Shown here one piece after another: positions 1,826 through 12,575 of a DNA stretch of 22,542 nt (the stretch's first letter is position 1; every line of letters begins with the position of its first letter). Made by a program: the position numbers and the translations under genes. This DNA is from a virus, in IMG/VR virus record IMGVR_UViG_3300007734_000482, positions 1-22,542 of that record. One strand, 5' to 3'. The notes under the pieces are model-generated. The model was not told the origin of the DNA and searched no databases. It was given only the letters and a program-made list of their open reading frames with translations.

Positions 1826-1905
1826 CGCGGGGGCCTCAGCGTCCAGATCAGCAGTGCTACGAGGAAGAACACCAGCGCCCACAGCGTCCCCTGGTACCCG
1901 CTCAC
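1822..1905 (-). CDS. 27-residue membrane peptide
   Basis: A GTG at 1905-1903 overlaps the stop of the RuvC-like gene (GTGA), and the TGA at 1824-1822 overlaps the next ATG. The peptide has one strongly hydrophobic segment (residues 8-22, 'LWALVFFLVALLIWTL') and a basic Arg-Pro-Pro-Arg end, so it should span the membrane once. It is too short for most gene finders. Overlap at both ends and the clean hydrophobic segment argue that it is translated. Function is unknown. Confidence 0.55.
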   Translation of the reverse strand: MSGYQGTLWALVFFLVALLIWTLRPPR

Positions 1906-2387
1906 GCCACCACCTCCACCTTCCGTAGCGCGGCGCACGCGAGCGCGGCCGCGTCGATCTCGTCCTGCGTGCGGCCGGCGATCTCCGGCCACTGGCCCTC
2001 GGCCCACTTGCGCACCGGCTCCTTGCCGGGCCCGCGGATGCCGAGCAGCTGCCGCCACTCGCGCGGCTGGATCACCTCGATCAGCGCGTGGCCGAACACC
2101 CGCCAGGCGATTGCCTCGACGTTGCCGACCCAGCGCGCGTGATCGACAGTGACCTTGCGGCTCGGGCCCGCGAACGGCGCCTCGATGAACACGCCCACAA
2201 CATCCACGTCGGCCGCGTCTGCGGTGTGCAGCACGCCCACCAGCTCGTCGCGCACCGCGCCGAGCGCGTGCCGGCGGTCCTCGTCGTGGCGGTCAACCAC
2301 GATCGTGCCCGTGGTAATCAGGCGCTCCTCGTCGGTGAGCAGCGCCCACCCGGTCACGCCCTGAGCTGCGTCGATGCCCAGGATCAT
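1902..2387 (-). CDS. RuvC-like Holliday junction resolvase (RNase H fold)
   Basis: This is a 161-residue protein from ATG 2387-2385, overlapping the upstream stop (ATGA). The N-terminus 'MILGIDAAQGVTGWAL' is the first strand of RuvC-type nucleases with the first catalytic Asp (Asp6). The second acidic residue is Glu69 in 'VVGVFIEAPF', and the C-terminal pair is Asp142 and Asp145 in 'TQDEIDAAALA'. The length matches the usual size of RuvC (about 160-190). RuvC cuts four-way DNA junctions as a dimer. In a phage it would resolve branched replication or recombination intermediates before packaging, fitting the nuclease and SSB-like protein of the other early operon. A distant RNase H-like nuclease of other specificity is possible. 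Confidence 0.8.
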   Translation of the reverse strand: MILGIDAAQGVTGWALLTDEERLITTGTIVVDRHDEDRRHALGAVRDELVGVLHTADAADVDVVGVFIEAPFAGPSRKVTVDHARWVGNVEAIAWRVFGHALIEVIQPREWRQLLGIRGPGKEPVRKWAEGQWPEIAGRTQDEIDAAALACAALRKVEVVA

Positions 2388-2467
2388 CGGCTGCCCTCGA
2401 TCCAGACCAGCATCACGATGCCGAGCGCCGTGACCCACTGCGCGAGGGTGGAGAGGATGGCGGTCAT
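2384..2467 (-). CDS. 27-residue membrane peptide upstream of RuvC-like gene
   Basis: The ATG at 2467-2465 overlaps the stop of the large zinc-finger gene, and its TGA at 2386-2384 overlaps the ATG of the RuvC-like gene. The peptide has a hydrophobic segment around residues 9-24 ('QWVTALGIVMLVWI') and no charge until Glu25, so it is a candidate single-pass membrane peptide. It has the same length as the peptide on the other side of the RuvC-like gene but no obvious sequence identity with it. Function is unknown. Confidence 0.55.
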   Translation of the reverse strand: MTAILSTLAQWVTALGIVMLVWIEGSR

Positions 2468-3300
2468 GCGGCCACCTTCCCGGCCTTCTCGCGCATCTCG
2501 CGGCAGTGGCGCGCGTGCTCCTCGCGGTAGCGCGGGTCGTGCGCCCGGCAGTAGTCGGAGTCGGCCAACGCCGCCATGCGGCACTGCTTGCCCTTGCCCG
2601 GTGCGTTGAGCTTGACGCCCTTGCACTGCACGCCGCGCACGTAGCCCTCAGCGCGCCGCAGCCGGCGGCGGTGAGCAGGGTCGCGGGCGAGGCCATGCTT
2701 GAAGTTGCGTGCCCCGGTGGCCTCGTTCTGCTTGCGGCGGTTCCAGCCCCGGTGCTCGAACAGCGAATACATCGCCATCGCCATCGCGTTGGGGTTGGCG
2801 TAGCCGGTACCGGGGTGCACCTCGTGGCACGCCTGGCGCATCGAGAGGCCGGTGAGGTAGAGCCTGCGCACCTCCTGTAGCTGCTCTTCGGTGCACAGGT
2901 AGGGCACGCCCGCGTTGCTCGAGCGCGCCCCCTTGCGCTTGTCGCCCAGGCGGTCGACCACGTTCGGGATCGTGTTCCCGCCGGTCTGCGCATCGCACCA
3001 TAGGCAGCTGCCGTCACCGCGGCTCGGCTGGATCTGCCGGCACTTGGGGCAGTAGGCGTCGAGGCCCGGGACCATCGGGGAGTCCTCGAGCACGACGTCC
3101 TGCATGTCGAGCACAACCGCGAAGCGGTCCATCCACTCGGCGCTCATCTGCCCCGTGGTGCGGGTGACGTGCAGCCTCCTGGCCGCCGATGAGGGCATAA
3201 GGTCGAAGCGCTCGCCGACGATCTCGGAGAAGCGCGTCAGGCTCACTTCGTTCAACTCACACCAGCGGTCAATCGCTTCGACCATCTCGGGCCCGGTCAT
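2464..3300 (-). CDS. Multi-domain zinc-finger/HTH DNA-binding protein
   Basis: This is a 278-residue protein from ATG 3300-3298, overlapping the upstream stop (ATGA). In order it has: a helical N-terminal domain (1-75) that could be helix-turn-helix; a zinc ribbon at about 84-102 (CPKC ... CLWC); a second HTH-like stretch around 137-160 ('LQEVRRLYLTGLSMRQACHE'); a basic linker; and a C-terminal Cys/His cluster at about 226-255 (CKG...CRM...CRAHD) typical of small phage zinc modules. The protein is strongly basic toward the end, consistent with DNA binding. It could be an early regulator or part of the replication machinery. No catalytic motif was recognised and no specific role is claimed. 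Confidence 0.65.
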   Translation of the reverse strand: MTGPEMVEAIDRWCELNEVSLTRFSEIVGERFDLMPSSAARRLHVTRTTGQMSAEWMDRFAVVLDMQDVVLEDSPMVPGLDAYCPKCRQIQPSRGDGSCLWCDAQTGGNTIPNVVDRLGDKRKGARSSNAGVPYLCTEEQLQEVRRLYLTGLSMRQACHEVHPGTGYANPNAMAMAMYSLFEHRGWNRRKQNEATGARNFKHGLARDPAHRRRLRRAEGYVRGVQCKGVKLNAPGKGKQCRMAALADSDYCRAHDPRYREEHARHCREMREKAGKVAA

Positions 3301-3506
3301 CGGTTCCCCCTTCGCACGTGCCGCCAGTAGCCGGCGATCACGTCGTTGCGTGGGATGCGCAGCGAGCCGGCGGCCTTGGTGATCGACTTGGTGCGCTCGA
3401 TGCCGTCAGCGCAGTACGCCTCGACGGCGTGAAAGCACGCCTCGTCGAGCTCGCGGCGCTGGGCGCGCTGGTCCTCGGTCATTCCCACTACGTCCAGGAG
3501 GGCCAT
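3297..3506 (-). CDS. Small HTH-like protein
   Basis: This 69-residue protein starts at ATG 3506-3504, sharing one base with the stop of the Rpf-like gene (TGATG). An alternative in-frame ATG lies at 3482. The N-terminal half is a charged helix. The C-terminal part ('ITKAAGSLRIPRNDVIAGYW') resembles a helix-turn-helix with a basic end (RHVRRGNR). It is probably a nucleic-acid-binding protein, but no family was recognised. Confidence 0.6.
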   Translation of the reverse strand: MALLDVVGMTEDQRAQRRELDEACFHAVEAYCADGIERTKSITKAAGSLRIPRNDVIAGYWRHVRRGNR

Positions 3507-4069
3507 CAGAACGCCCCCGAGCAGCCCCAGGCGGTGATGCCGACTGAGTCACGCACTGCGTCGGCAACAAGCACCTGCTGTTGGGGAGAGGCCCACCCGG
3601 CGTTGCCGGGGTAGTGCTTCGGGCGCCAGCCGTCCCACGTGCCGTGGAAGAACCCGAGCCCGCCTTCGTAGGTTGGCCCAGACACGGTCCAGTTGACGCC
3701 CGCGTAGCCCGAGCCCGGCTGCTCGCAGCGCCCGATACGCAAGAAGCCTTGGTAGTCCGGCACGCGCTTGGCAACCTCAGGCCATGTCACCGGGGCCGGC
3801 GGGAACTCGAGTCGGTCGCGCTTGAGCTGCTTGACGCACGCCTTTTTGGCGTCGCCATGGTGCGCTGCGCACGGCGCTGCCGCAGCTGGGGAGACAGAGA
3901 ACGCGATAGCACTCCCCACAGCCGCCGCGACTCCCCACCGGGTCAGCCGCTGCAGGGCCTTCGCATGTCGTGTCTCCCCACGCTGTTCGTGGTCACGACC
4001 CGGGGCGTGGCTTGCCCGCGGGCGATCCACCCGAAGGTGGTACTGAACCAGTTGTTCTGAGCGCTTCAC
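3506..4069 (-). CDS. Secreted Rpf-like peptidoglycan hydrolase (transglycosylase-like)
   Basis: This is a 187-residue protein. The GTG start at 4069-4067 has an excellent AGGAGG five bases upstream. Residues 1-42 are basic, 46-64 form the hydrophobic core of a signal sequence ending in AAAAP, and 98-187 match the resuscitation-promoting factor/transglycosylase-like fold. That fold shows Cys115-Glu116 (catalytic Glu), 'YEGGLGFFHGTW', 'ASPQQQVLVAD' and a late 'WGC' (Cys183, likely disulphide partner of Cys115). Rpf enzymes cleave the glycan strand of actinobacterial cell walls and wake dormant cells. This gene is far from the holin/endolysin cassette and heads an early-type operon. The N-terminal extension before the signal core is unusually long, so a shorter start is possible. 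Confidence 0.8.
   Translation of the reverse strand: MKRSEQLVQYHLRVDRPRASHAPGRDHEQRGETRHAKALQRLTRWGVAAAVGSAIAFSVSPAAAAPCAAHHGDAKKACVKQLKRDRLEFPPAPVTWPEVAKRVPDYQGFLRIGRCEQPGSGYAGVNWTVSGPTYEGGLGFFHGTWDGWRPKHYPGNAGWASPQQQVLVADAVRDSVGITAWGCSGAF
4027..4040 (-). other. RNA hairpin with UUCG tetraloop near the Rpf-like start
   Basis: Read on the minus strand, a 5-base-pair stem (CCACC/GGTGG) closes a TTCG loop, the extra-stable C(UUCG)G type. It lies about 30 bases inside the Rpf-like coding region, between it and a GCCCGCGGGC palindrome at 4014-4023. It could affect translation or be part of the recombination site, or it may be chance. Confidence 0.3.
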
Positions 4070-4097
4070 CTAGACCTCCTGCATAGCGGTCGTTTTT

Positions 4098-4134
4098 GGG
4101 TCTGATGTCTCCCCATCGGGCCTAATGTCTCCCC
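4098..4134. repeat. Tandem 17-bp direct repeat in the int/Rpf divergent spacer
   Basis: The 17-mers at 4098-4114 and 4118-4134 agree at 15 of 17 positions (GGGYCTRATGTCTCCCC) and start 20 bp apart, about two helical turns, so bound proteins would sit on the same face of DNA. The 104-base spacer (4070-4174) separates two divergent genes and must hold the integrase promoter and possibly one for the leftward operon. TAATGT at 4123-4128 is a possible -10 for the integrase, but no good -35 was found. Confidence 0.5.
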
Positions 4135-4174
4135 GACGTGCAACCATCTGGTCGGGCTCACGAAGGGAGACGCG

Positions 4175-5230
4175 ATGCCCGCCTTGGTGAAGAAGTGCCG
4201 CCACGCGAGGGGAGAGTGGGGAGACTGCGCGTGCCAGTGGTACGCGGACTACCGCCTCGCGGGTCAGCGGACGTACAAGCCACTCGGCCGTGACCGTGCG
4301 CAGGCGCAGGCCGCATACCGCGTCGTCCTGGCCGAGCTCGCCGCCGGCATCACCGGCGTCAGCGGCGACCCGACCTTCGACGAGGTCGCGGACATCTACA
4401 TCGCCGCCTGCCGCGTGCGCCTGCGGGCTCAGTCGGTCGACCGCTATGAAGCAGTGCTCGATCATGCCCGGCGCTACTTCGCCGGCGGCGTAGCGTCCGC
4501 CATCGGCACGCCCGAGATCGCCATGCTCGCCCAGGCGCTGCTCGACAGCGGACACGCCCGAAGCCACGTGCGCATGATCGTCGGGCGCACCATCGCCGTG
4601 CTTCGCCATGCAGCCGAGCTGGGCATCGTCGAGCGTGTACCGGCCACGCCGTCGGTGCTGGCCGACGCGACAGATGATGAGCCCGAGCTCGAGGTCCTCA
4701 CGCTTGAGGAGGCGCGGAAGGTCATTGCCAAGTTGCCCGAACCGGAGCGCAGCCTCAGCGTCCTCGTGCTGTGGACCGGCATGCGTGCCTCGGAGGCTCT
4801 GGCCCTTGGTCCCGAGAACGTCGGTGACGCCGTGCTGCTCGTGCGCTCCACTCAGGTGCAGGGCAGGCGCACCAAGTCCGGTGAGGTCGTCACCAACCGG
4901 CCCAAGTCCCGTCGCGGCAAGCGCGACGTCGATCTCATCCCGCAAGCCGTCGAGGCACTCGGCGATCTTGTCCTGCCGGTCGACACCACCTACCGCCGCT
5001 GGCTGCAGCGCTGGCAGGGGGCCTGCAAGAAGGCGCGCGTGCCCGCCACGGGGCTCCACGCGCTCAGGCATACGAACGTCAGCCTGCGCTTCGCCGCCGG
5101 CCAGACGCTCACCTACATCGCGGACCAGGTCGGCGATGCGCCTCAGACCATCACGCGGCATTACGCGCACCTCCTGCGCGCTCAGACGCCGCCGCAGACT
5201 GATCTGCTCGCCGCCGTCGCGGGGGCCTGA
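4175..5230 (+). CDS. int: Phage integrase, tyrosine recombinase
   Basis: This is a 351-residue protein starting at ATG 4175 with GGGAG six bases upstream. It carries out site-specific recombination between attP and attB. An N-terminal Cys/His cluster (Cys8, His10, Cys18, Cys20) plus basic residues forms the arm-binding region. A core-binding helical domain spans about 65-165. The catalytic domain shows Arg204 (TGMRASEA), Lys244, His295 and Arg298 (HALRH) and the nucleophile Tyr330 (ITRHYAHLL). The usual second His of 'LGH' is Asp321 (VGD). Length is normal for actinophage integrases. It is the only plus-strand gene between two leftward operons. Its last 80 bases overlap the excisionase-like gene tail to tail. 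Confidence 0.93.
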   Translation: MPALVKKCRHARGEWGDCACQWYADYRLAGQRTYKPLGRDRAQAQAAYRVVLAELAAGITGVSGDPTFDEVADIYIAACRVRLRAQSVDRYEAVLDHARRYFAGGVASAIGTPEIAMLAQALLDSGHARSHVRMIVGRTIAVLRHAAELGIVERVPATPSVLADATDDEPELEVLTLEEARKVIAKLPEPERSLSVLVLWTGMRASEALALGPENVGDAVLLVRSTQVQGRRTKSGEVVTNRPKSRRGKRDVDLIPQAVEALGDLVLPVDTTYRRWLQRWQGACKKARVPATGLHALRHTNVSLRFAAGQTLTYIADQVGDAPQTITRHYAHLLRAQTPPQTDLLAAVAGA

Positions 5231-5426
5231 CTTCGCGCGCGAATGTGGTGCTGCTCGGTGTCGCACTCGGGCGCACCAGCTGCTCGAGCGACCAGCCGGG
5301 CACGTAGTAGCGCCCGTTGATGCGCATCGAGACCACCCGGCCGCGCCGGATCAGCCCGCGAACAAAGTCCTGAGAGCGACCGAGGGCCTCTGCGGCCTCG
5401 GCCACGGTGAGGAGCTGCGCGTTCAC
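5151..5426 (-). CDS. Excisionase-like MerR-type HTH protein
   Basis: This is a 91-residue protein from GTG 5426-5424, overlapping the upstream stop (GTGA). Residues 5-50 ('LTVAEAAEALGRSQDFVRGL', then a basic wing with 'RYYVP') are the winged HTH typical of excisionases and helix_turn_helix_17 proteins. The last 40 residues are basic and low in complexity and are encoded opposite the integrase 3' end. Position next to int supports a role as recombination directionality factor, bending attachment-site DNA during excision. A transcription regulator is the alternative. Its transcript is antisense to int. Confidence 0.75.
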   Translation of the reverse strand: MNAQLLTVAEAAEALGRSQDFVRGLIRRGRVVSMRINGRYYVPGWSLEQLVRPSATPSSTTFAREVRPPRRRRADQSAAASERAGGARNAA

Positions 5427-7828: not shown

Positions 7829-7849
7829 ACTAGGTATCGGGCGCCTAGT
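7829..7849. promoter_or_regulatory. 21-bp dyad upstream of the first HTH gene
   Basis: ACTAGG (7829-7834) and CCTAGT (7844-7849) form a perfect inverted repeat with a 9-base spacer, 40 bases before the GTG of the HTH gene at 7890. TAGTGCC is shared with the other dyad (7677-7683 and 7846-7852). This fits autoregulation by a repressor binding both sides of the divergent spacer. The rest of 7639-7889 holds one more ACTAG (7738-7742) and no gene that I can support. Confidence 0.5.
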
Positions 7850-7889
7850 GCCGTACCATTCAGCTCGAGGGGCCAAGGAAGGGAGACCT

Positions 7890-8123
7890 GTGGCCACGCT
7901 CGCAGACCTGATCGTCTACGGACGGCAGGGCAAGGGAATGACCCAGAATGACCTGGCGATCGCGCTTGAGATCAAGGCCGGCGGCGCACAGGTGTCGAAG
8001 TGGGAGCGCGGGGCCCTGCCGGACCCGCGCAACGTCCACCGCATGATCGAGCTGCTCGGGCTCGAGGCGGATGAGACCTGGCTTGCCTTCGGACGCGCGG
8101 TCGACGCGGCGAACTCGCTCTAG
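7890..8123 (+). CDS. XRE-family HTH protein, candidate phage repressor or Cro
   Basis: This 77-residue protein starts at GTG 7890 with AAGGAAGGGAGA just upstream; a longer frame to 7848 lacks that signal. It is a single Cro/C1-type domain: 'MTQNDLAIALEI' (helices 2 to 3), 'QVSKWERGALPDP' (recognition helix and turn), and a closing helix 'VHRMIELLGLEADETWLAFG'. It has no C-terminal cleavage or dimer domain, so it is Cro-sized. It diverges from the early operon across a spacer with dyads, the standard place for a lysis-lysogeny regulator. It ends 4 bases into the convergent gene at 8120. Confidence 0.8.
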   Translation: MATLADLIVYGRQGKGMTQNDLAIALEIKAGGAQVSKWERGALPDPRNVHRMIELLGLEADETWLAFGRAVDAANSL

Positions 8124-8299
8124 CCGGTCCCGTTCTCCATCGCGCGCCTGGTGGCGTCGGCGCGCTCGACCAGCGCTCTCCCGCTCGGTAGCACCTGCAG
8201 CTGCTCGCGCCTGTCCTCGATCAGGGCGACGACGGCAAGCACGGCATTGAAGGCAGCGGTCATGCGCTGGGCCGTGACCTCAGAGGTGTCGTCAGTCAT
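8120..8299 (-). CDS. Small helical protein in the switch region
   Basis: This 59-residue protein starts at ATG 8299-8297 with AAGGGA at good spacing. The frame stays open upstream to 8515, but the dyad at 8321-8347 suggests that stretch is regulatory. It is a helical protein with a hydrophobic stretch 'FNAVLAVVALI' at 14-24, too short and too flanked by charge to be a sure membrane segment, then a charged half. It converges on the HTH gene at 7890-8123 with a 4-base overlap. Function is unknown. Confidence 0.55.
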   Translation of the reverse strand: MTDDTSEVTAQRMTAAFNAVLAVVALIEDRREQLQVLPSGRALVERADATRRAMENGTG

Positions 8300-8320
8300 G
8301 ACGGTCCCTTCGGTCGGATA

Positions 8321-8347
8321 GTGAGGAACGTGTGTTCTAGTCCTCAC
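8321..8347. promoter_or_regulatory. 27-bp dyad upstream of 8299 gene (operator candidate)
   Basis: GTGAGGA (8321-8327) and TCCTCAC (8341-8347) are perfect inverted repeats with a 13-base spacer. The minus strand carries TAGAAC within it, a possible -10 for the 8299 gene. The remaining spacer (8348-8566) includes an AT-richer stretch at 8485-8520 that may hold the promoter of the HTH gene at 8567 (for example TTGCTG at 8493), but no clear -10 was seen. Confidence 0.45.
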
Positions 8348-8566
8348 CTCGGACGCTTCGAGAAACCACTCCGCGACCCACCTCGGCATCTGCACGGGCG
8401 TAGGCTGCGAGCGGTTCATCGTCACCACCACCGATCCTAAAGAGGGTTTGGCGCTGCGTTGGGCCGGGAACCGTACCTGATGCCTTGGTAAGTTGCTGAA
8501 CAGTAAGAAACTCATTTAGGTGAGCCGACTTCGGCCCGACTCCGTTCATCATTCGGAGCTGGGCCG

Positions 8567-8818
8567 ATGAGCAGCAGCAAAGAGGCGTTTACCAAGAGGT
8601 TTTGTGACTGGCGGGCCGAGGCAGGCATGACCCGCCGTGATCTGGCCCGCGCGCTCGAGGTCACCGAGCAGACCCTCATCAACTGGGAGAAGGGCACTGC
8701 GCCCACCATCGAGCCGCTCGCGCGCCTCGCGGTCTACTCGGGGCTGTCGATTGACTGGTGGCTCGGGCTCACCGACGCACGCGCCAGGCTGCGGGTCACG
8801 CGCCGGAAGGCCATGTAG
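8567..8818 (+). CDS. XRE-family HTH protein, second switch regulator
   Basis: This is an 83-residue protein from ATG 8567, with GGAG about 9 bases upstream. The Cro/C1 fold is clear: 'FCDWRAEAGMTRRDLARALE' (helices 1-2), 'VTEQTLINWEKGTAPT' (recognition helix), and 'IEPLARLAVYSGLSIDWWLG' (helices 4-5). It shares the fold but little sequence with the HTH protein at 7890, so the two may act on different operators as a repressor/Cro pair. The basic tail (RLRVTRRKAM) is encoded opposite the end of the convergent gene at 8734. Confidence 0.8.
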   Translation: MSSSKEAFTKRFCDWRAEAGMTRRDLARALEVTEQTLINWEKGTAPTIEPLARLAVYSGLSIDWWLGLTDARARLRVTRRKAM

Positions 8819-9589: not shown

Positions 9590-10291
9590 TCATGCGGCTG
9601 CGGCCGCCTCGCGCGGCCTGCCGATCCATTCGGCCGACACGGTGCGCGTGCCGTCGTGGGCGTCGCGGATCGTCACGATCCATCCTCCGATGTCAGGGGA
9701 GATGCCGCGGTCGCGCATGAACGGCGTCTGGCGCTGGAAGCACCCGGCCATCAGGCACGTCACGCCGTGGTGGCGGAAGAACGCGGCCTTGTGGAAGTGC
9801 CCGAGCACGAGGATGTCGGGCCGGTCGGCCTCGGGCAGCTGCTCGATGAAGCGCTGGGCCTTGTGTGAGTGCGCGTAGGCCGAGGGTCCGCTGCCGTGAG
9901 CGAGCAGGATGCGCGTGCCGTCGTCCAGCGTGACCGTGGCGCGGTCGTTGCCCAGGTACACGATGTCCGTGCGCCGGCGCGCCAGGGCGTGCACGGGGTT
10001 GGCCCCTCGGAAGTCGCCGTGCAGGTCGTGGTTGCCCGCGATCATGAGCGTGCGCACGCCGGGCACCCGGGGGTAGTGCTCATCGGCCCGGTCGACCTGC
10101 TGTGCGGGCGTGAGCTCGTCGGTGACGTTCCCGCGGTACATCCCCGCGCCCGCCATCACGTCGCCGGCGTGAAGCACCGTGCTGATGCCGCGGAAGGCGA
10201 ACTCGTCGTAGACCGCCTGCAGCTCCTCGGGCGACTCGAAGCGGCTTCCGATGTGCGTGTCGCTCACCACGCCGATGACCTGGGCGGCCAT
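9590..10291 (-). CDS. Calcineurin-like metallophosphoesterase (short form)
   Basis: This is a 233-residue protein from ATG 10291-10289, sharing one base with the upstream stop (TGATG). All family motifs are in order: Asp11-x-His13 (SDTHIG), Gly43-Asp44 (HAGDVM), Asn87-His88-Asp89 (GNHD), His132 (LLAHGSG) and His165-x-His167 (GHFH), giving a dinuclear metal site. Family members hydrolyse phosphodiesters or phosphomonoesters, including nucleic acid ends. It is the last gene of the leftward late block and lies directly after a second, larger member of the family. The substrate is unknown. Confidence 0.88.
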   Translation of the reverse strand: MAAQVIGVVSDTHIGSRFESPEELQAVYDEFAFRGISTVLHAGDVMAGAGMYRGNVTDELTPAQQVDRADEHYPRVPGVRTLMIAGNHDLHGDFRGANPVHALARRRTDIVYLGNDRATVTLDDGTRILLAHGSGPSAYAHSHKAQRFIEQLPEADRPDILVLGHFHKAAFFRHHGVTCLMAGCFQRQTPFMRDRGISPDIGGWIVTIRDAHDGTRTVSAEWIGRPREAAAAA

Positions 10292-11319
10292 CAGTCGAGC
10301 CACAGCAGGTACTCGGCCGTCACGCGCCCGCGCTCGGGGTCGATCATGTGCAGGCGCTGCCCGGGGAGCGACTCGGCGGCCATCCACTCCTTTGCGAAGC
10401 TCGAGCCGCTCACGCAGCTGGGCGTGACGAACACACGGCCGCCGGCAGGCAGCGGGATGCTCATCGGGATGTGGAAGTGCCCGAGGTAGGCATCGGTGAA
10501 CTCCGGCATGACGCCGGCCGCCCAGCTCATGTGCTTGCGCAGGATGCCGTAGGCCGGGATGTTCCCGCCGAAGCCGCGAATGGTGTCCCCGTGATGCACG
10601 AGGAAGCGGTACGCGCCGATCTCGCCCACGTGGTACCAGGTGTCCGCGTCGTGCCAGGTGAGCCGGTCCTGCCCGGCGAGGTTGTCGCGGATCACGCGCC
10701 CGACGATCCGGTCCCAGTTGGTCTCGGTCTCGTAGTCGAGCGACTGCCTGCCCTTGCCGCGCCCGACGCGCCCGTGGTTGCCGGGCACCTCATACACCGT
10801 GACCCGCTCGAAGCCTCCGAGCAGCGACAGGATCGCGTCGCCCAGGATGCGCGCCGCGGTGAACACCTGGTCGAACGTGGTCTGCTCGACGTGCCACACC
10901 TGATGAGCGAACTGCGCGGTCTGCTCGATGAGGTCACCGCCGAGGAGCAGCACGCACTCTCGCACCGGGTGATCCGCCCGCTGCACGTCGGAGATGCGCA
11001 CGGCCTTGCCGACCGCCTCCATGACGCGCCGTGTGGTGACCTCGACGTTGGTGCTGGCCGTCACCGCGCCGACATGCACGTCGGTCAGATGCAGCAGCGC
11101 GACCTCCTCACCGGCCTTCCTGCGATCGCGCCGTGGTGGTGGCACCGCAGATGGCGTGCCGGCCACCACTGCAGCGTCGCGCGCGGCCTCGTAGACCGCG
11201 GCGATCAGGTCAGCGCTCTTGGCCTCGGCCTTGGCAAGGCGCCGCTGCAGGCTCTTGCACGTGGCTTCCAGCTGCGCCGCGCGCTCCTCGGCTCCTATCT
11301 CATCGCCGAGCGCAGGCAC
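10291..11319 (-). CDS. Metallophosphoesterase with N-terminal coiled coil (SbcD/Mre11-like motifs)
   Basis: This is a 342-residue protein from GTG 11319, with GGGG five bases upstream and a 20-base overlap with the gene before it. Residues 10-50 are a coiled coil and 55-70 a Pro/Arg linker. The catalytic part has Asp80-x-His82 (TDVHVG), Asp129 (GGDLIE), Asn181-His182 (GNHGR), His242-His243 (VHHGDT) and His281-x-His283 (GHFH). The GNHGR box, in place of GNHD, is frequent in phage DNA-repair-type phosphoesterases. Together with the adjacent 233-residue enzyme it forms a tandem pair. It may be a nuclease or a phosphatase acting on DNA. Confidence 0.85.
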   Translation of the reverse strand: MPALGDEIGAEERAAQLEATCKSLQRRLAKAEAKSADLIAAVYEAARDAAVVAGTPSAVPPPRRDRRKAGEEVALLHLTDVHVGAVTASTNVEVTTRRVMEAVGKAVRISDVQRADHPVRECVLLLGGDLIEQTAQFAHQVWHVEQTTFDQVFTAARILGDAILSLLGGFERVTVYEVPGNHGRVGRGKGRQSLDYETETNWDRIVGRVIRDNLAGQDRLTWHDADTWYHVGEIGAYRFLVHHGDTIRGFGGNIPAYGILRKHMSWAAGVMPEFTDAYLGHFHIPMSIPLPAGGRVFVTPSCVSGSSFAKEWMAAESLPGQRLHMIDPERGRVTAEYLLWLD

Positions 11320-11544: not shown

Positions 11545-11805
11545 CTACGCCTGTTCGGGGGCGTCGGTGGGGATCGCCGGGAGCTCGTCGATCAGCTCCG
11601 ACGACTCAATCCACGCAGGCTCGCCGTAGACGGTCTGCACCATCGCCTGCAGCTGGCGGCCGAGCACCACGATGGCGCCGAGCACGGTCGCGCAGGTCGC
11701 GCCCCACTGCCAGGGGAGCGTGCTGAACACGGGAGCCAGCGCAGCCGCGACTGCGCCGATGAGCCCGATCCACGATGCGGGCCCGAAGGTGACCTTCTGG
11801 TTCAC
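11545..11805 (-). CDS. Holin candidate
   Basis: This is an 86-residue protein from GTG 11805, with an AAAGGAA ribosome-binding site upstream. Two hydrophobic segments, about 11-31 ('WIGLIGAVAAALAPVFSTL') and 34-53 ('WGATCATVLGAIVVLG'), are separated by a tight turn and followed by an acidic soluble tail. This is the layout of two-segment holins that open the membrane for endolysin. It lies directly after the endolysin gene. Only topology and context support the call. Confidence 0.6.
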   Translation of the reverse strand: MNQKVTFGPASWIGLIGAVAAALAPVFSTLPWQWGATCATVLGAIVVLGRQLQAMVQTVYGEPAWIESSELIDELPAIPTDAPEQA

Positions 11806-11819
11806 GATGGTTCCTTTCC

Positions 11820-12575
11820 TCAGGTGGTCTTGCCGAGCGCCTCGGGCGCTGCGGCGGTGCCGGCGGACTGCCGGACACGGGAGAACGGACGAAGCTGCCG
11901 GCCGAGGCGTCGCTCGAGCACGGTCTTGGCCTCATCGCGTCCCTGCTCATCGAGCCACGGCCCGTAGACCTTGCGGCCGAGCTCGAAGGCGTACTTGCCC
12001 TTCACGCGCACCCGGCGCGCTTGGCGGCGCTGGTCGGGCGCGAGGCGCAAGATGGCCTTCTCGCGCGCCTGACGGCTCCTCCACGGGCCGTAGAGGCGCG
12101 GGGTGGCCGTGGGGTCCTCGAGGAAGTACACGCGCTCCTTCTCGGGCCTGCCGTGGCGCAGCTCGGGCGAGACCACGATGGTCGCGCCGGCAAGGCTCCT
12201 CACGCGCCTGGCGACAGAGTCGGAGGTGTTGCCCTCGATGGTGTTCCACACGCCGGGGGAGACCTCGGAGACCAGCATCCCCACGTGCGTGCCGCACCAC
12301 ACGATGAGGGCACCGGGCACGGGGGTGCTCGTGACCCAGCCCTTCTCGCGCCCGCGTGAGCAGATGACTGCGGTGGCCGGGTGGCTCACGTCGGTCACGC
12401 CCGCCTCGCGCAGCCAGGCCGAGCAGGCCATGCCACACCAGGGCTCGTAGCGCATCGACCAGTAGCGCTCCCACTTGGTGATCGGCCCGCCGCCGTCGTC
12501 GTTGCTACCCGGCGGCTTCTCGCGCACGCCGATGTAGCGGGCGGCCGTGGCCACGACCCGCTGGTTAGGTGTCAC
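11820..12575 (-). CDS. Endolysin with CHAP-like cysteine peptidase/amidase domain
   Basis: This is a 251-residue protein from GTG 12575, with AGGAAG upstream. Residues 1-135 form a CHAP/NlpC-P60-type domain with Cys47 in 'YEPWCGMACSAWL', His97 in 'CGTHVGMLV' and an Asn/Glu pair in 'NTIEGNTS' (111-118). These enzymes cut peptide or amide bonds in peptidoglycan. The C-terminal 100 residues are basic and carry two copies of a YGPW unit (162-165 and 204-207), each followed by a charged helix with an Arg-Glu/Asp pair. They may be a wall-binding module. There is no signal peptide, so export needs the holin. Confidence 0.8.
   Translation of the reverse strand: MTPNQRVVATAARYIGVREKPPGSNDDGGGPITKWERYWSMRYEPWCGMACSAWLREAGVTDVSHPATAVICSRGREKGWVTSTPVPGALIVWCGTHVGMLVSEVSPGVWNTIEGNTSDSVARRVRSLAGATIVVSPELRHGRPEKERVYFLEDPTATPRLYGPWRSRQAREKAILRLAPDQRRQARRVRVKGKYAFELGRKVYGPWLDEQGRDEAKTVLERRLGRQLRPFSRVRQSAGTAAAPEALGKTT

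Follow-up and report, generated by a model that had tools for sequence, protein, structure and literature searches.

A secreted Rpf-like gene of a phage overlaps at its 5' end the probable attachment site of the neighbouring integrase

Why a secreted wall hydrolase of the Rpf type should be encoded beside the integrase of a phage, with an unusually long basic leader that runs into a cluster of DNA repeats, is the question raised by positions 3506-4069 of a single IMG/VR virus record 22,542 bases long (the whole stretch that was analysed, here called the window). The leader of the protein and the attachment site of the phage were considered together, and the comparison of the locus with related phages suggested that they are, in large part, the same DNA.

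The rpf-like gene and its surroundings

The rpf-like open reading frame (3506-4069, minus strand) is real, exactly as delimited in the initial annotation. It starts with GTG, encodes 187 amino acids and is preceded by a strong Shine-Dalgarno sequence, AGGAGG (4075-4080, minus strand), located 5 nt upstream of the GTG at 4069; no recognisable sigma-70-like promoter was found near rpf. A Pfam profile search matched the protein to PF06737 'Transglycosylase-like' with E=1.1e-8 and 36.1 bits (cut-off 27 bits), which bore out the Rpf-family identity proposed earlier from motifs. A second match was obtained to PHROG 29757 'transglycosylase' (1e-5), and the closest solved structures among PDB relatives were RpfE, RpfB, and RpfC. 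Within the Rpf/transglycosylase-like catalytic domain (3518-3754, minus strand), the catalytic Glu116 (codon 3722-3724) directly follows Cys115, and this Cys-Glu pair aligned with the Cys-Glu pair of an actinobacterial secreted PF06737 protein. Cys183 is located within the Trp-Gly-Cys end of the protein. The residues C115-E116 and C183 were invariant among the Rpf proteins of the phage relatives described below and aligned to the bacterial protein. The signal core of the initial annotation was also recognised: judged by hydropathy, the secretion signal consists of a hydrophobic core (residues 47-64; 3878-3931, minus strand) with AxA sites, and the n-region ahead of it comprises 46 residues with a net charge of +6.

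The closest relative found for the window Rpf was the bacterial, secreted PF06737 protein, with 48% identity over 97 residues of the catalytic domain and a locus GC content of 70.6%; its genome belongs to the Actinomycetota, because the phylum sample had been drawn around a Tessaracoccus genome. A tblastn search of rpf against phage records returned zero matches or weak domain matches. Shallow AlphaFold models yielded no significant Rpf match for the full-length protein (pLDDT 52) and no significant PDB match for the domain (pLDDT 74) and were not counted as evidence. Judged by sequence, the placement of the product in the Rpf/PF06737 family is sound, cleavage of peptidoglycan outside the membrane is the activity predicted from membership of this family, and the phage host is likely an actinobacterium.

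The protein resembles the actinobacterial Rpfs of family PF06737 (RpfB, RpfC, and RpfE of M. tuberculosis) in its transglycosylase-like domain, Cys-Glu motif, C-terminal cysteine and secretion, and differs from them in being phage-borne, in the unusually long basic leader encoded by a motif array, and in the strong divergence of its homologues in related phages. Rpf-like motifs of the same enzyme family are present in actinophage tape measure proteins, lysins, and minor tail proteins, where they are parts of the virion or of the lysis machinery, whereas the window Rpf is a free secreted protein encoded beside int. A stand-alone phage Rpf is also encoded by gene 102 of the M. abscessus prophage prophi79-1 (RpfC-like; L026 8965-9273), but that gene is flanked by terminase and RuvC-like genes, in a neighbourhood that also has portal genes, and is not beside int.

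The small ORF that follows rpf (3297-3506, minus strand) is coupled to it by a TGATG stop-start overlap and in turn overlaps an operon member to which no function was assigned (2464-3300, minus strand); rpf therefore heads a run of coupled genes. L012, one of the related phages, has the same order of rpf and the small ORF. A RuvC-like Holliday-junction resolvase gene (1902-2390, minus strand; PHROG 159, E=3e-13) lies on the same strand and in the same leftward block. The position given in the initial annotation, at the head of a leftward operon that shares a block with the RuvC-like gene and adjoins int (4175-5230, plus strand), was therefore correct. So was the separation from the lysis genes: a CHAP-like endolysin gene (11820-12575, minus strand; PHROG endolysin families, E=1.6e-6; weak match to PF05257 CHAP, E=0.051) and an adjoining putative holin gene (11545-11805, minus strand), named by eye from its position and hydrophobic character and without a PHROG match, are located about 7.5 kb from rpf. 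A putative holin beside the lysin was also seen in G002 and G004.

Three further observations concern the gene content of the window. A family-2 glycosyltransferase-like gene (318-1079; PF13641, E=1.7e-6) belongs to the leftward block of rpf. Two tandem metallophosphoesterase/exonuclease-like genes lie at 9590-11319; in the tblastn table the match of G002 is confined to the first and that of G003 to the second. A pair of small plus-strand genes (7848-8818) encode XRE-type HTH proteins, probable lysogeny regulators; in their vicinity there is no exact copy of GTCTCCCC, a sequence considered below.

The integrase and its relatives

The product of int was identified as a tyrosine integrase (PHROG 1, E=4e-39), and the 3' end of the gene is overlapped by an ORF for an HTH_17 protein (5151-5426, minus strand; PF12728, E=2.7e-10), a probable excisionase. 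Close relatives of the integrase, 88%, 72%, and 69% identical to it, were found in three other IMG/VR contigs (L010, L011, and L012), and further scans beyond these three contigs revealed no more close relatives. Each of the three contigs carries a secreted Rpf-like ORF beside int, divergent to it and in the same position as in the window, so that the int-rpf arrangement is known from four genomes. The Rpf proteins of these phages diverge fast, being 32-45% identical compared with 69-88% for the integrases. Taken singly, the three homologues fell below the Pfam threshold of PF06737; their profile matched the domain of the window protein with 98% probability in hhalign.

L012 and L010 have most of their structural genes in common with the window. 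L011 (G004) possesses homologues of the int, rpf, lysin, holin, and RuvC genes of the window and no detectable structural similarity. Since the pair is kept in L011 despite an unrelated structural module, int and rpf form a stable module.

A distant integrase, G491:C441 (L045), was detected in a class-wide genome search with E=6.5e-54. Its upstream neighbour is not rpf but a VRR-NUC-like gene, assigned by a sub-threshold Pfam match. Downstream of the distant int, at L045 2544-3101, there is a secreted and possibly lytic-transglycosylase-like ORF (CIITRESGW...GLMQM by eye; no significant Pfam match), which would make it a second wall-enzyme-like gene near an integrase of this lineage.

Prophages were searched for in the viral contigs and genomes, and neither a prophage nor attL/attR or attB was found in them. 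In GTDB genomes, nothing close was found among prophages with this integrase or attP array; G491, a distant relative without rpf, was the only one. Three genome matches to the arm-array pattern (L023, L024, and L025, of which L025 was inspected) were unsupported as relatives, and L018 was judged by its context to be a chance match.

The motif array and the candidate crossover core

The repeat cluster noticed in the initial annotation consists of copies of TGTCTCCCC or its complement. Eight copies are present within about 360 bp of the window compared with 0.7 expected, a number reached in 0 of 2000 shuffles, so the basic N-terminus does overlap a cluster that is denser than expected by chance. 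Allowing one mismatch at most, each of the four phages has eight or nine copies, and their positions relative to the int start, between about -290 and +43, are nearly the same. Given in the order window, L012, L010, and L011, the offsets are -287/-288/-287/-297, -246/-247/-246/-256, and -203/-204/-203/-213 for three of the copies and -68/-68/-68/-77, -48/-48/-48/-57, and -11/-11/-11/-10 for three others.

Three candidate arm-type sites lie within rpf, around the signal core. An exact GTCTCCCC (3888-3895, minus strand) coincides with the signal-peptide codons FSVSP, has the same int offset in the four phages and is invariant including third codon positions; GACTCCCC (3929-3936, plus strand) coincides with the signal-peptide codons WGV, where TGGGGAGTC is invariant in all four phages; and another exact GTCTCCCC (3972-3979, plus strand) encodes GET. 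Two candidate sites are located in the rpf-int gap at 4107-4114 and, 20 bp further, at 4127-4134 (both plus strand). The variant GTCTCCCT (4164-4171, minus strand) overlaps the ribosome-binding site of int, and two candidate sites within 4209-4225 (minus strand), CTCTCCCC at 4209-4216 and GTCTCCCC at 4218-4225, lie inside int codons 12-17. The motif bases of the three copies within rpf are invariant across the four phages (24 of 24), and over 93 bases aligned without gaps the third codon positions were invariant at 7 of 7 sites inside motifs and at 4 of 24 outside (p=1e-4), the motif copies having first been defined in one of the four sequences.

Six motif copies were also found in the equivalent stretch upstream of the distant integrase G491:C441 (0 of 2000 shuffles). 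Because this integrase has the motif without an rpf neighbour, the motif follows int and not rpf. The motifs look like arm-type sites of the integrase, as far as sequence can tell. The VRR-NUC-like ORF upstream of the distant int (L045 644-1006) starts inside the motif array, with a copy at 989, and arm sites that reach into the 5' end of the adjoining gene may be a general trait of this integrase lineage. In Cluster K mycobacteriophages (CrimD, Pixie), too, short arm-type repeats of mixed orientation stand on both sides of the core, 5' of a tyrosine integrase; in mycobacteriophage attP, 11-bp arm repeats surround the core 5' of int (PMC3203893). The window differs from Cluster K in that arm sites and candidate core are located inside the coding sequence of the neighbouring gene.

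An unbiased search for shared 13-mers over the approximately 127 bases that separate the two motif clusters gave AGAACAACTGGTT as the best shared 13-mer, with a score of 34/39 compared with a random maximum of 29 in 400 trials. It is one base off GAACAACTGGTTC (rpf sense), an imperfect palindrome GAAC-N5-GTTC at 4045-4057 that occupies rpf codons 5-9 and is the candidate attP crossover core. The distance from this block to the int start is 117, 117, 117, and 124 nt in the four phages, and the block lies 11-12 bases past the rpf start codon, or 30 bases in L011 (4-10 codons inside rpf). A Shine-Dalgarno sequence and a start codon directly precede the block in all four phages. In L012 it is crossed in another rpf reading frame than in the other three phages, and therefore the core is conserved as DNA and not as peptide. 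A downstream rpf start was rejected for L010 and L012, since neither has an in-frame start codon between the block and the signal core.

Two identities of the core were considered and rejected. A tRNA or tmRNA tail did not apply, as the window contains no tRNA and the sequences past the core diverge. Of 9 genome matches to the core 15-mer, 6 were located in the same conserved codons (Leu-Asn-Gln-Leu-Phe-Phe) of rpoB, each in a different sampled genome of the class, the gene being recognised by eye in its translated sequence; an insertion in the middle of this essential gene should be lethal, so rpoB was rejected as attB and the matches were taken as coincidence.

An overlap of attP with the 5' end of rpf is well supported by this comparison, and the exact crossover is probably at 4045-4057, a candidate position deduced from conservation. 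The passing suggestion in the initial annotation that the rpf frame may have taken in attachment-site DNA is now strongly favoured by the comparative evidence.

Possible consequences of integration for rpf

Taken together, we lean towards a mechanism in which attP and its crossover core lie within the 5' end of rpf, integration removes the ribosome-binding site and start of the gene, and Rpf is thereby tied to the unintegrated state or to the host attB sequence. A secreted peptidoglycan hydrolase of the Rpf type would have joined the integration module of the phage: attP would be made up of the arm-type sites at 3888-3979 and 4107-4225 around the core at 4045-4057, reaching into the rpf frame, and the 45-residue basic leader would be attP DNA read as protein. 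As long as the phage DNA is free, whether not yet integrated or already excised, rpf would keep its ribosome-binding site and start codon and would be translated together with the operon behind it. Integration at the core would split the locus: ribosome-binding site and start would remain beside int at one end of the prophage, and the body of rpf and the following genes would adjoin host DNA at the opposite end. Because the candidate core overlaps the 5' end of rpf, integration would take away its ribosome-binding site and start codon, and the output of Rpf would then be bound to the unintegrated state or ruled by the host sequence at attB. The change in expression upon integration is what we infer from this layout. 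If the crossover is the conserved block, the prophage copy of rpf is severed from its start, and the simple model that a lysogen wakes its host is therefore disfavoured, unless host attachment-site DNA provides a start.

Other explanations of the same layout were weighed. The array could consist of operators for a regulator of divergent rpf and int promoters, palindrome included, with crossover elsewhere and rpf not split. The helix-like spacings of the motifs (20, 41, and 43 bp), the two copies in the rpf-int intergenic gap and the XRE-type regulators encoded in the window fit such a role, but the only other exact motif copy in the window is at 12256 and none is near the XRE genes, the motif sites accompany the distant integrase without an rpf neighbour, and a core flanked by arms, 5' of int, is the attP layout of tyrosine integrases, so that we regard this explanation as quite improbable. 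If the overlap with attP is accepted, the prophage rpf could instead be expressed from a host promoter and start at attB, with a leader fused from host and phage sequence, and alter the wall turnover or dormancy of the lysogen. The edge of attP, where rpf is located, is the classic position for conversion genes, and the closest Rpf relative found is bacterial. However, the rpf frame of L012 crosses the core in a different phase, which means that no constant in-frame fusion to a single host gene is conserved, and two of the four phages lack an in-frame start between core and signal; lysogenic conversion of this kind appears improbable.

A role of rpf as an auxiliary enzyme for release or wall loosening in lytic growth, with the attP overlap reflecting genome compaction and having no regulatory meaning, is doubtful. 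The partner phages also encode endolysin homologues, so Rpf would be an accessory, and overlap alone need not imply regulation; by itself, however, this explanation leaves the linkage of a fast-diverging gene to int across unrelated phage backgrounds unexplained. More tentatively than the mechanism favoured above, a wall enzyme controlled by integration may be envisaged, with Rpf made from unintegrated phage DNA only and silenced by lysogeny, for example so as to start growth of a dormant host when the phage infects or has been excised.

Attachment-site cores inside ORFs are documented for repressors in the integration-dependent immunity of mycobacteriophages (PMC4557955, PMC9934374). In BPs and its relatives, as in the favoured mechanism for the window, the attP core lies inside an ORF and integration changes the gene product. 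The BPs repressor loses its 3' end and the protein becomes stable, whereas the secreted hydrolase of the window would lose its 5' end, with ribosome-binding site and start. One published hint that Rpf levels and phage infection are connected is that during infection of Rhodococcus by phage WC1 four host rpf genes rise, and the authors speculated that cells may thereby be kept from dormancy (PMC10986025). An Rpf made only from free phage DNA would, speculatively, suit such a function at the start of infection or following excision. If the favoured mechanism is true, integration-dependent control would extend from repressors to a secreted enzyme linked to dormancy, and a signal-peptide coding sequence would double as binding sites of a recombinase. 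It would also open a direct test of phage manipulation of host dormancy in the choice between lysis and lysogeny, since rpf output could be compared between the unintegrated and the integrated state.
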